Below are positions 48,222 to 51,492 of a DNA stretch of 64,000 bases, in pieces. The stretch lies in assembly GCF_003096275.1 (NCBI RefSeq), contig NZ_QENQ01000001.1:2476731-2540730 (forward strand), written 5' to 3'. The position numbers were made by a program, and so were the translations under genes. The notes under the pieces were generated by a model. That model did not search any database, was not told the DNA's origin, and saw nothing but the letters and a program-made list of their open reading frames with translations. Position 1 is the stretch's first letter. Each line of letters begins with the position of its first letter. The stretch comes from Sphingomonas pokkalii (lineage in GTDB: Bacteria; Pseudomonadota; Alphaproteobacteria; Sphingomonadales; Sphingomonadaceae).

Positions 48222-48578
48222 TCAGGCGGCCGCCACCCCCTCGGCGAACTGATCATAGGCCCGCAGCGCATCGGCCGCGTACATCAGCGCCGGGCCGCCG
48301 CCCATATAGACGCACATCGCCATCACCTCGGCCACTTCCGCGCGGCTGGCGCCCATCCCCACCAGCGCCTTGGCGTGGAAGCCGATGCAACCGTCGCAGC
48401 GCTGGGTGACCCCGATCGCCAGCGCGATCAGCTCCTTGGTCTTGGCGTCGATGGCCCCTTCTGCACCGGCCGCCTTCGCCATGGCGTGGAAGCCCGCCAT
48501 CGTTTCGGGCGCCAGCTTCCGCAACTGCGCCGAATAGGCCGAAATGTCCTGGGTGAGCGCGCGATAATCCTTGGCCAT
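48222..48578 (-). CDS. carboxymuconolactone decarboxylase-family (AhpD-like) protein
   Basis: A 118-residue CMD-family protein with the redox CxxC-type active site C61/C64 and H68 in QRCDGCIGFHAKAL, and the conserved E in EVAEVMAMCVYMGGGPA. Such proteins act as peroxidase-linked disulfide reductases (AhpD) or related thiol redox enzymes. The ribosome site GGGAG precedes ATG 48578. It diverges from the ArsR regulator across a 50-base palindrome-containing region, so both directions are probably controlled by it. Confidence 0.88.
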   Translation of the reverse strand: MAKDYRALTQDISAYSAQLRKLAPETMAGFHAMAKAAGAEGAIDAKTKELIALAIGVTQRCDGCIGFHAKALVGMGASRAEVAEVMAMCVYMGGGPALMYAADALRAYDQFAEGVAAA

Positions 48579-48600
48579 GGGGCAACTCCCAATTGATTCA

Positions 48601-48626
48601 CATATCTATTAATTGATATAGATGTG
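48601..48626. promoter_or_regulatory. palindromic operator between CMD and arsR-like genes
   Basis: CATATCTAT (48601-48609) and ATAGATGTG (48618-48626) are inverted repeats with 8 of 9 positions paired and an 8-base spacer, in a very AT-rich divergent promoter region. The right arm ends two bases before the regulator ATG, so binding should block its own expression. This is the expected layout for an ArsR-type repressor such as BigR or SqrR. Confidence 0.65.
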
Positions 48627-48628
48627 GA

Positions 48629-48958
48629 ATGAAGGCAAGTCCCCCCGTGCATTCCCTGATGGAAGCGATGGCGCCCAAGGCGGCCGGCGCTGCCGCCTTG
48701 CTCTCCGGCCTGGCCAACCCCCACCGGCTGATGATCCTGTGCGCGCTGGTGGAAGGCGAACGCAACGTCGGCGCGTTGATCGCGGCAACCGGCATCGCCC
48801 CGACCTCGATGTCGCAACACCTCAATAAGCTGAAAGACGAGGGCATCGTCACCGCCCGGCGCGCGCATCGCACGCTGTTCTATTCGATCACCCACCCCGC
48901 CGCCCGTGACCTGATGGCGGTGCTCCACGCGCATTTCTGCGGAAAGGAAGAGGCATGA
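48629..48958 (+). CDS. ArsR-family regulator of the BigR/SqrR (persulfide-sensing) type
   Basis: A 109-residue winged-helix repressor. The recognition helix is in IAPTSMSQHLNKLKDEG. C38 in MILCALVEG and C104 in HFCGKEEA are 66 residues apart, the same spacing as the persulfide-reacting pair of SqrR and BigR. No metal-binding CxC motif of the ArsR/SmtB metal sensors is present. The stop overlaps the ATG of the rhodanese gene. The persulfide role is inferred from the cysteines and the sulfur-transferase partner. Confidence 0.85.
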   Translation: MKASPPVHSLMEAMAPKAAGAAALLSGLANPHRLMILCALVEGERNVGALIAATGIAPTSMSQHLNKLKDEGIVTARRAHRTLFYSITHPAARDLMAVLHAHFCGKEEA

Positions 48959-49482
48959 CTGCCACCATCGACGCCCGCGAGGCGCACCGCCTGCTCGCCC
49001 GCGGCGACGCACTACTGATCGATGTGCGCGAACCAGACGAATTTCGTGCGAGCCATATCCCCTATGCCGCATCGATGCCGCTCGGCGCGCTGCCGTCGCT
49101 GCTCGCGGATGCCGTTCTACCGGCCGGTCGCCTGCTGATCTTCCAATGCCAGAAGGGCGGGCGCGGCGGCCAGGCTTGTGCGCTGGCAGAAGGGATGCTG
49201 GGCGATCGGGTGCGCAACCTCACCGGCGGGATCGAGGCCTGGGCCGCAGCCGGGCTGCCGCTGGCGGGCGCGGGCGCACCGCGTGTCTCGATCTTCCGCC
49301 AGGTGCAGATGATCGTCGGCCTGCTCGTGCTGGGCTTCACGCTGCTGGGGCTGGCGGGGTTCGCGCCGGGCTTCTACGCAGCCGGGTTCTTCGGTTTCAT
49401 GCTCGCATTCGCCGGGTTCAGCGGCTGGTGTGGACTGGGGATGCTGCTGCAGCGGATGCCCTGGAACCAGGGGGCGGCCTGA
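48955..49482 (+). CDS. rhodanese with C-terminal DUF2892 membrane helices (YgaP-like)
   Basis: Sulfurtransferase of 175 residues. The rhodanese domain covers 1-105, with the active-site cysteine C65 in FQCQKGGRGG. A C-terminal DUF2892-type helix pair (about 115-165, VGLLVLGFTLLGLAGFAPGF) anchors it in the inner membrane. E. coli YgaP has the same layout and is also encoded next to an ArsR-type regulator. It overlaps the regulator gene by four bases. It should take up or release sulfane sulfur during sulfide or cyanide stress. Confidence 0.9.
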   Translation: MTATIDAREAHRLLARGDALLIDVREPDEFRASHIPYAASMPLGALPSLLADAVLPAGRLLIFQCQKGGRGGQACALAEGMLGDRVRNLTGGIEAWAAAGLPLAGAGAPRVSIFRQVQMIVGLLVLGFTLLGLAGFAPGFYAAGFFGFMLAFAGFSGWCGLGMLLQRMPWNQGAA

Positions 49483-49493
49483 GCCCTCCCCAC

Positions 49494-49528
49494 GAAAAAG
49501 CCCCCGCCGTTGCCGGCAGGGGGCCTTT
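49494..49528. terminator. bidirectional terminator between rhodanese and typA
   Basis: AAAAAG, a GC-rich stem (GCCCCCGCCG / CGGCAGGGGGC, one bulge) and CCTTT form a hairpin between two convergent genes. The A-run on the left and T-run on the right make it usable in both directions. It lies 12 bases from the rhodanese stop and 21 bases from the typA stop. Confidence 0.75.
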
Positions 49529-49548: not shown

Positions 49549-51390
49549 TCAGGCGGCCGACTTCGCCCGGCTGGCGCGCTTGCGCTCGTTCGGGTCGAGG
49601 AAGCGCTTGCGCAGGCGGATGTTCTTCGGCGTCACTTCCACCATCTCGTCGTCGTCGATGTACGCAATGGCCTGTTCCAGCGTCATCTTCTTCGGCGGAG
49701 TCAGGCGGATCGCGTCGTCCTTGCCGCCCGAAGCGCGGAAGTTGGTCAACTGCTTCGCCTTCATCGGATTGACCTCGAGGTCTTCCGTCTTGGCGTTCTC
49801 GCCGATGATCATGCCTTCATACAGCGCTTCGCCATGGCCGACGAACAGGATGCCGCGCTCTTCGAGCGGACCCAGCGCATAGCCTTGGGCTTCGCCGGCG
49901 CCGTTGGAGATCAGCACGCCGTTCTTGCGGCCTTCGATCTTGCCCTTGTACGGCCCGTACTTCTCGAACAGGCGGTTCATGATGCCGGTGCCGCGGGTGT
50001 CCGACAGGAACTCCCCGTGATAGCCGATCAGGCCGCGCGACGGTGCCGAGAAGGTGATGCGGGTCTTGCCGCCACCCGACGGACGCATGTCGGTCATCTC
50101 GGCCTTGCGCTGGTTCATCTTGTCGACGACCGTGCCGGAGAATTCTTCGTCCACGTCGATCACGACGGTTTCGTACGGCTCTTCACGGCCGTTCTCGCCT
50201 TCCTGGAACAGCACGCGCGGACGGCTGATGCCGAGCTCGAAGCCTTCGCGACGCATCGTCTCAATCAGCACGCCAAGCTGAAGCTCGCCGCGGCCGGCGA
50301 CTTCGAAGCTGTCCTTGTCCTCGCTCTCGGTGATCTTGATCGCGACGTTCGATTCCGCTTCGCGGAACAGGCGGTCGCGGATCATGCGGCTGGTCACCTT
50401 GGTGCCTTCGCGGCCCGCCATCGGCGAGTCGTTGACGGCGAAGCGCATCGACAGCGTCGGCGGATCGATCGGCTGCGCCTGCAGCGGCACGCTGACCGAG
50501 GTATCCGCGATGGTGTTCGACACGGTGGCGACGGCGAGGCCGGCAAGGCTGATGATGTCGCCCGCCTTGGCTTCGTCGACCGGCACGCGGTCCAGGCCAC
50601 GGAACGACAGGATCTTGGAAGCGCGACCGGTCTCGATGATCTTGCCGTCATTGTCGAGCGCGTGGATCGGCTGGTTCAGGCGCACCGTGCCGCTCTCGAC
50701 ACGGCCGGTGAGGATACGGCCGAGGAAGTTGTCGCGGTCGAGCAGCGTGACGAGGAACTTGAACTCCGCGTCCGGGTCCACCTTTGGCGGCGGGACATGT
50801 TCGACGATCTTTTCGAATAGCGGGGTCAGCGTGCCCTCGCGCGCATCCGGATCGGTCGAGGCATAGCCGTTACGGCCCGAGGCGTATAGCACCGGGAAGT
50901 CGAGTTGTTCGTCGGTTGCTTCGAGCGTGACAAAGAGATCGAACACTTCGTCGAGCACTTCCTGCACGCGCGAATCGGCACGGTCGATCTTGTTGACGAC
51001 CACGATCGGACGCAGGCCCAGCTTCAGCGCCTTGCCGGTGACGAACTTGGTCTGCGGCATCGCGCCTTCGGACGAATCGACCAGCAGGATCACGCCGTCG
51101 ACCATGCTCAGGATGCGCTCCACCTCGCCGCCGAAGTCGGCGTGGCCGGGCGTGTCGACGATGTTGATGCGGATGCTGTTCTCTTCCGTGCCGTCCGGCG
51201 ACCAGTCGACCGAGGTCGGCTTGGCGAGAATCGTGATCCCGCGCTCCTTTTCGAGGTCGTTCGAGTCCATCGCACGCTCTTCGACGCGCTGGTTGTCACG
51301 GAAGGTGCCGGACTGGCGGAAGAGCTGGTCGACGAGGGTGGTCTTGCCATGGTCGACGTGCGCGATGATCGCGACGTTGCGGAGATTCAT
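49549..51390 (-). CDS. typA: translational GTPase TypA/BipA
   Basis: Ribosome-associated GTPase of the EF-G/LepA group, involved in 50S assembly and stress adaptation. 613 residues. G1 HVDHGKTT starts at 11; the switch has [10 protein letters not shown]3 DTPGHADF and G4 VNKIDRAD. The C-terminal BipA-specific part contains [20 protein letters not shown]. The ATG at 51390 follows CAGGAAATCGC and gives [16 protein letters not shown], the family start. The basic tail [22 protein letters not shown] is typical. Confidence 0.97.
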
Positions 51391-51492
51391 GCGATTTCCT
51401 GATTGGCGCGGAAGCGCGCGTTCGGGCGGCCCCATAGCGGAATTTGTGCGCCGCGGGAAGGCCCCCCGCCAACAGCGATGTCCCGGTTCGGT

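Follow-up and report, generated by a model that had tools for sequence, protein, structure and literature searches.

The gene for an ArsR-type repressor with two cysteines in Sphingomonas pokkalii is followed by a YgaP-like gene and faces a divergent gene for a CxxC protein of the CMD/AhpD family, which raises the question of whether this CMD protein takes part in a persulfide response or is a mere neighbour. The YgaVP-type switch itself is known; what is added here is a CMD gene whose subfamily accompanies sulfide/persulfide genes. An initial annotation had read the locus as persulfide-sensing and had seen in the CMD protein a tie between sulfane sulfur and peroxide or thiol redox.

Layout of the locus and its three proteins

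The ORF listing of the window, the whole 64,000-nucleotide stretch of DNA that was analysed, confirmed the three reading frames (CMD, ArsR and YgaP-like) where they had initially been placed (Table 1). The ArsR and YgaP-like frames share 4 bp (ATGA) and CMD is transcribed divergently from ArsR, with start codons 50 bp apart, so that both the overlap and the divergent orientation held. Fold assignments of the proteins were clear at sequence level. The hairpin beyond the YgaP-like gene is a probable terminator, which would separate the ArsR-YgaP unit from a convergent typA/bipA gene (window 49549-51435, minus strand; TypA/BipA by Pfam). The typA/bipA gene end also adjoins locus L008, and an unannotated 628-aa gene of equal length adjoins L016 and L017. 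A phage origin was set aside: in a comparison of the three proteins with PHROGs, CMD and YgaP had no match and ArsR matched nothing but unnamed families.

Table 1 Features of the divergent CMD and ArsR-YgaP locus (window coordinates)
Feature	Position	Strand	Basis
CMD/AhpD-type protein, 118 aa, E49-x11-C61-x2-C64-x3-H68	48222..48578	-	ORF, Pfam CMD, 5dik match
Candidate -35 TTGATT of ArsR-YgaP promoter	48593..48598	+	By eye; same in window and three congeners
Dyad ATATC-N8-GATAT, candidate operator for both divergent genes	48602..48619	.	Symmetry, genome uniqueness, conserved core
Candidate -10 ATATAG, 17 nt from -35	48616..48621	+	By eye; weak
ArsR repressor, BigR/SqrR/YgaV/HlyU kind, C38 and C104	48629..48958	+	ORF, Pfam, alignments
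YgaP-like rhodanese (loop C65-QKGGR) fused to YgaP-type membrane domain (C159)	48955..49482	+	ORF, Pfam
GC-rich hairpin, then T run on minus strand; probable terminator	49501..49522	.	Sequence scan

The ArsR protein (109 aa) is an ArsR/SmtB winged-helix protein by its matches to Pfam HTH_5 (46 bits, above cut-off) and NF033788 (72.6 versus a cut-off of 55). Its only cysteines, at positions 38 and 104, are 66 residues apart, within the 66-67 of the SqrR/BigR/YgaV repressors, and each aligns with cysteines of BigR (3pqj), HlyU and chains 13ct/6o8k, which we take to be SqrR; the initial comparison of the pair with SqrR and BigR is thereby borne out. Among solved structures its best relatives were BigR (65.6 bits), SqrR (59.5), HlyU (58.8), NolR (57.9) and YgaV (55.1), and because these are about equidistant we file it with the group rather than with a single ortholog. 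Cysteine spacing, ArsR fold and scores (66 and 60 bits) are thus shared with BigR of Xylella/Agrobacterium and SqrR of Rhodobacter, whereas the presumed targets here are YgaP and CMD and not Blh/TauE or sqr, and the protein stays below the curated cut-off of the BigR equivalog NCBIfam NF040642 (75.5 versus 155 bits). The cysteine pair was present in 26 of the 30 CMD-adjacent ArsRs, a set that includes the window and congeners that were not dereplicated; the exceptions were L029 (N/A), L093 (R/R), L202 (C/H) and L084, which is cut by a contig end. Taken together, the cysteine pair, its recurrence in the 26 proteins and the YgaVP-type gene pair give good family-level support to the reading of a persulfide-sensing locus, and ArsR is likely to sense persulfide. 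H100 and H102 lie beside C104 in the window protein and in those of its congeners, and the closest ArsRs from other genera in this comparison, L019 and L141, have not kept them; next to C104, the two histidines may be metal or haem ligands.

The YgaP-like protein matched PF00581 and PF11127 above both cut-offs (Rhodanese 58.5 bits, YgaP-like_TM 31.5 bits), with C65 in its rhodanese loop and C159 in the membrane domain, in agreement with the sulfurtransferase proposed initially. The locus therefore has the arrangement of E. coli ygaVP, in which a two-cysteine ArsR gene is directly followed by a rhodanese-YgaP membrane fusion and autorepression is presumed. It differs in that ygaVP as described contains no CMD gene (PMC9774250, in part), in that its dyad is not like ATTC-N8-GAAT, and in that its ArsR scores 55 bits to YgaV. 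YgaV is a sulfide-responsive repressor of ygaVP with a C31-C98 tetrasulfide (PMC9774250, in part), and thiocyanate, which YgaP may export, binds to that protein near C159 (PMC4730233, in part). Exactly two YgaP-type membrane domains above cut-off are found in the genome, one at the window locus and one at a second locus, L002. Close to ArsR and CMD, the rhodanese fusion gives way to a stand-alone YgaP-type membrane domain, of 63-75 aa where called as a gene, in L021, L022, L024, L025, L029 and L071 (also L060); the domains of L021, L029 and L080 have a CPAY...NTC motif in common, and the membrane part of YgaP may be the half that is retained. In L029 the ArsR that goes with such a domain lacks the cysteine pair.

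For the CMD protein, matches above cut-off to Pfam PF02627 (78 bits) and TIGR00778, together with the CxxC-xxxH motif and its upstream glutamate (E49, C61, C64, H68), indicate the CMD fold. Its best solved relative is 5dik (E 4e-35), which we take to be Lpg0406, and the spacing of the four residues is presumably that of the AhpD relay. The motif and, by sequence, the fold are thus those of the AhpD/CMD family, but the AhpD subfamily model TIGR00777 gave no match at E 0.001, and close relatives of the window protein adjoin sulfur genes and seldom a peroxiredoxin. All 44 sulfur-linked relatives retain E49, C61, C64 and H68, and unlinked ones nearly always do too, so that by themselves these residues are no pointer to sulfur. 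In one congener (L008:1421-1710) ArsR and YgaP are whole but the CMD gene lacks its first part, and what remains of it does not share the reading frame of the apparent start; an assembly error could alternatively account for this. Selenocysteine in the relative L127, which has TGA at the C64 position, was set aside because its genome gave no SelB match above cut-off; a broken gene or sequencing error is more likely.

The intergenic gap and its dyad

The 50-bp gap has 36% G+C, compared with 67% for the window, and contains the 18-bp dyad ATATC-TATTAATT-GATAT. Since an equal degree of symmetry arose in 45 of 3000 dinucleotide-shuffled versions of the gap, symmetry alone is suggestive and not strong. 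In an exact-match search of the 4.22-Mb genome, ATATC-N8-GATAT occurred once, at this gap, and no further ArsR targets emerged from that search. The window and three of its congeners (L005, L006, L008) have identical letters in the dyad core AATTGATAT and in the TTGATT hexamer, and the outer arms vary. A palindromic operator had been proposed at the start of the regulator gene: the dyad is present and lies inside 48595-48630, but upstream of the ArsR start codon, and it may be the operator. A promoter consensus scan of the gap detected none, and both hexamers were picked by eye; the candidate -10, which is weak, would leave the ArsR mRNA nearly leaderless.

The SqrR-type box ATTC-N8-GAAT was absent from all 20 gaps tested (the window gap and 19 others) and was therefore rejected as the operator in the gap; the window dyad does share with the published box its TC-N8-GA core. 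This box is not strictly defining, since it is missing from the YgaV site at katG as well (PMC9774250, in part). A REP-like inverted repeat upstream of CMD was likewise dropped, none of at least 14 nt being found.

Comparison of divergent ArsR-gene gaps of other bacteria revealed that the gap motif tracks the recognition helix of the adjoining ArsR, as read from the ArsR comparison; some of these gaps extend roughly 30 bases into the ArsR reading frame. One group comprised nine ArsR-CMD gaps with the helix SALSQHL and the gap of L002 (SACSQHL), where the divergent neighbour is not CMD. TTAG-N4-8-CTAA was present in eight of these ten gaps (0.11 expected), each time with a spacer of 6 by eye and lacking only in L071 and L002, and GATAT or ATATC in two (2.4 expected). 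In the eight gaps with an SMSQHL helix, by contrast, GATAT or ATATC occurred in all (3.5 expected), the pair ATATC-N6-12-GATAT in four (0.06 expected) and TTAG-N4-8-CTAA in none. As six of the eight are the window and its congeners (L018, with a gap identical to that of L006, was left out), independent support comes from L019, the only one outside them with the pair, and L141, with a single half-site. Of two further gaps, that of L114 has TTAG-N-CTAA and that of L096 neither pair.

CMD genes beside sulfur genes in other genomes

Relatives, picked by CMD similarity alone, comprised 80 named-genome loci (the best 80 of 468) together with loci sampled from the genus, class, order and phylum and 58 further regions; nine weak places (G261, G279, G391, G451, G307, G437, G302 and two of G359) fell outside this set. 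Of the 221 loci entered, L195 was dropped for want of a CMD match, and 154 loci were left after dereplication at 85% of CMD. An ArsR, YgaP-TM or rhodanese gene lay within 1 kb of CMD in 34 of 103 loci at 48% identity or above compared with 1 of 51 below (Fisher p = 2e-6), a line that was set after the table was seen. Adding SQR-, PDO- and TauE-like genes raised this to 44/103 versus 1/51 (p = 8e-9), and ArsR alone gave 22/103 versus 0/51 (p = 6e-5). By identity band, linkage to the three core genes was 8/19 at 60% or above, 18/56 at 54-60%, 8/28 at 48-54%, 1/19 at 43-48% and 0/32 below 43%, and 9, 24, 11, 1 and 0 with the added genes. These counts are lowered by loci that end less than 1 kb from CMD, and the gene profiles are somewhat more sensitive in the 80 named-genome loci, whose neighbouring genes went into part of them, than in the control band.

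Position gave a similar picture: among 54 named loci with full flanks, a core gene was found at 0-1 kb in 23, and in the next four 1-kb shells in 3, 1, 4 and 6. Within the best 80 of 468 named loci, a core gene lay within 1 kb in 31 (38 with SQR/PDO/TauE-like genes added) and any of these genes within 5 kb in 48. On a CMD tree of 153 rows, 45 of them linked, with few columns and many open forks, the linked label changed 25 times compared with 39.2 when shuffled, and none of 500 shuffles was as low. The linkage of CMD to sulfur genes is thus real but not universal, as 59 of the 103 close relatives had no tested sulfur gene within 1 kb, including L020, L023, L030 and L069 at 63-72% identity (the L020 contig stops 316 bp upstream).

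The linkage takes unlike arrangements. A divergent ArsR-YgaP pair occurs in Sphingomonas, Xanthomonas chitinilytica and Massilia, a divergent ArsR with a stand-alone YgaP-TM in Diaphorobacter, Alcaligenes and other Proteobacteria, and an Fnr-type regulator with YgaP-TM in Rhodopseudomonas; CMD also appears in RND-TolC clusters with SQR-like genes and in SQR-PDO-TauE-like clusters. In L158 a tight operon runs PDO-like, YgaP-TM, rhodanese, CMD, SQR-like, TauE-like, with CMD sharing one base with rhodanese and four with the SQR-like gene, and in L142 a tight run consists of ArsR, YgaP, CMD, PDO-like and Fnr-type genes. SQR and PDO are profile-based names, and the proteins that were spot-checked fell below NCBIfam curated cut-offs: the PDO-like ones matched the metallo-beta-lactamase fold and, under the cut-off, GloB and Blh about equally, and the SQR-like one matched type III SQR, again under the cut-off. 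CMD lay within or close to RND-TolC efflux clusters that carry an SQR-like flavoprotein in L031, L032, L044, L055, L059, L065, L072 and L078 (Burkholderiales, Sphingomonadales).

By tblastn with four sequences of the window genome, which is less sensitive than the sulfur-gene profiles, 3 of the 154 loci (L206, L093, L193) had a peroxiredoxin gene no more than 1 kb from CMD. Of the two sides that CMD had initially been thought to join, sulfane sulfur is therefore supported by the identity and shell counts, whereas the peroxide link was set aside as the main reading on neighbourhood.

Linkage is rare when viewed from the regulator. Among 129 ArsR matches in 106 of 299 phylum genomes, compared by eye with CMD places, five directly adjoined CMD (G000, G558, G182, G487 and G588, the last being L202 with C/H instead of the pair) and a further four lay about 4-6 kb away (G562, G596, G714, G612). 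In the genus of the window, CMD stood beside ArsR and YgaP in 4 of 61 genomes (G000, G054, G023, G002), in one with a broken CMD.

A probable persulfide-responsive unit and its alternatives

On balance, we read the whole unit as a YgaVP-type, persulfide-responsive two-way promoter with a CxxC CMD protein that probably reduces or carries persulfides. This reading starts from the observed gene order, cysteine pair, dyad and recurrent CMD-sulfur linkage, and takes persulfide sensing and derepression by ArsR from what is known of its family. A reduced ArsR dimer on the dyad would repress both ArsR-YgaP (rightward) and CMD (leftward), and low-molecular-weight persulfides would form a polysulfide link between C38 and C104, take ArsR off the DNA and allow expression of both sides. 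YgaP would move sulfane sulfur at the membrane, and CMD, with its CxxC motif in an AhpD fold, would reduce or carry protein and thiol persulfides, lower the signal and possibly reset the sensor. Control of CMD by ArsR at the window locus is quite likely; that its chemistry is directed at persulfides has a little less than an even chance.

Should the locus instead serve defence against thiol oxidants or peroxide, ArsR would sense H2O2 or disulfide stress via C38/C104 and CMD would be a true AhpD-like peroxidase. The AhpD-type motif retained by CMD fits this, as do the AhpD-like RclX needed to protect P. aeruginosa from HOCl and HOSCN (PMC7950407, in part), the ArsR-type H2O2 sensor RexT (PMC8960804, in part) and the sulfenic acid that can form on BigR cysteines (PMC5823870, in part). 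We nevertheless consider it unlikely, as the recurring partners are SQR-, PDO- and TauE-like genes, rhodanese and YgaP-TM, with a peroxiredoxin nearby in only the three loci of a single-sequence search (though the partner might yet be an AhpC encoded far away), and CMD is unmatched by TIGR00777.

It is somewhat more improbable that this is an ordinary ygaVP locus and the divergent CMD gene a mere neighbour that shares the intergenic space and stands outside the function. ygaVP has been described as a two-gene operon (PMC9774250, in part), the CMD gene of L008 is broken beside an intact ArsR and YgaP, and only 5 of 129 ArsRs of this kind have CMD beside them; against this, the linkage recurs in unlike arrangements and distant families, stands out in the identity-band and positional controls, and clusters on the CMD tree. 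A metal or haem sensor with C38/C104 and H100/H102 as ligands, and no polysulfide bridge, appears very improbable: the two histidines do flank C104 in the window protein and congeners and YgaV does bind haem, but haem affects YgaV DNA binding little (both PMC9774250, in part), the window protein has no third cysteine for a CxC-type site, and the ArsRs of L019 and L141 do without H100/H102.

Extending the persulfide reading beyond the window, we tentatively suggest that the CMD subfamily might be a dedicated part of a bacterial sulfide-oxidation/persulfide-response module. Its CxxC proteins would either accept sulfane sulfur from SQR or rhodanese or act as persulfide reductases, with the sulfur passed to persulfide dioxygenase or released as H2S, and would in addition reset the adjacent tetrasulfide-bridged repressor. 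SQR requires a sulfur acceptor; for this role, or for a SqrR-type reset, a CxxC protein whose gene accompanies those of the sensor, of YgaP and of SQR- and PDO-like proteins is a direct candidate. If true, one subfamily of the large CMD/AhpD redox family would gain a testable role in sulfide biology.

Among the matches listed in our literature search, which covered mostly papers open without subscription, we recognised no link of CMD/AhpD to BigR/SqrR/YgaV sensors, persulfide, SQR, PDO or DUF2892. A survey names sqr, sox, pdo, rhodanese, shdr, RND, TauE and YeeE as neighbours of two-cysteine ArsRs, with CMD not among them in its section 2.1 (PMC12423496). The BigR operon and BigR disulfide (PMC5823870, in part) and BigR and FisR of A. 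baumannii (PMC7315123, in part) have been described, and the terms AhpD, CMD, carboxymucon-, peroxidase and hydroperoxid- are absent from the main text of the latter. In Rhodobacter capsulatus, bridged SqrR is reset by thioredoxin-2 (PMC10044876, in part). An S. aureus sulfide/nitroxyl study has ahpD and ahpF among strongly up-regulated Fe-/PerR-regulated genes (PMC5480029, in part), and a P. aeruginosa sulfane sulfur paper has the CMD-type PA0269 in its cysteine-peptide table, with BigR, SqrR and ArsR unnamed in the part covered (PMC13295329).

A search of the window genome for two SQR types, run without a positive control, found neither. The genome holds two more ArsRs of the two-cysteine kind, L002 and L003. 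At L002 (contig C1, about 1807100), a two-cysteine ArsR, a YgaP-like rhodanese and a TauE exporter are accompanied by a divergent Blh-like dioxygenase, which lacks its N-terminal part and stays below the NCBIfam cut-off for whole Blh; this locus is nearer to the BigR layout than the window locus is. By eye, its promoter has a CTAATATATTAG element and no ATATC-N-GATAT pair, and with this different element the L002 and window sensors may be insulated from one another. L003 (C1, about 2086500) is an orphan ArsR with both cysteines beside glycosyltransferase-like and AAA_33 kinase-like genes.
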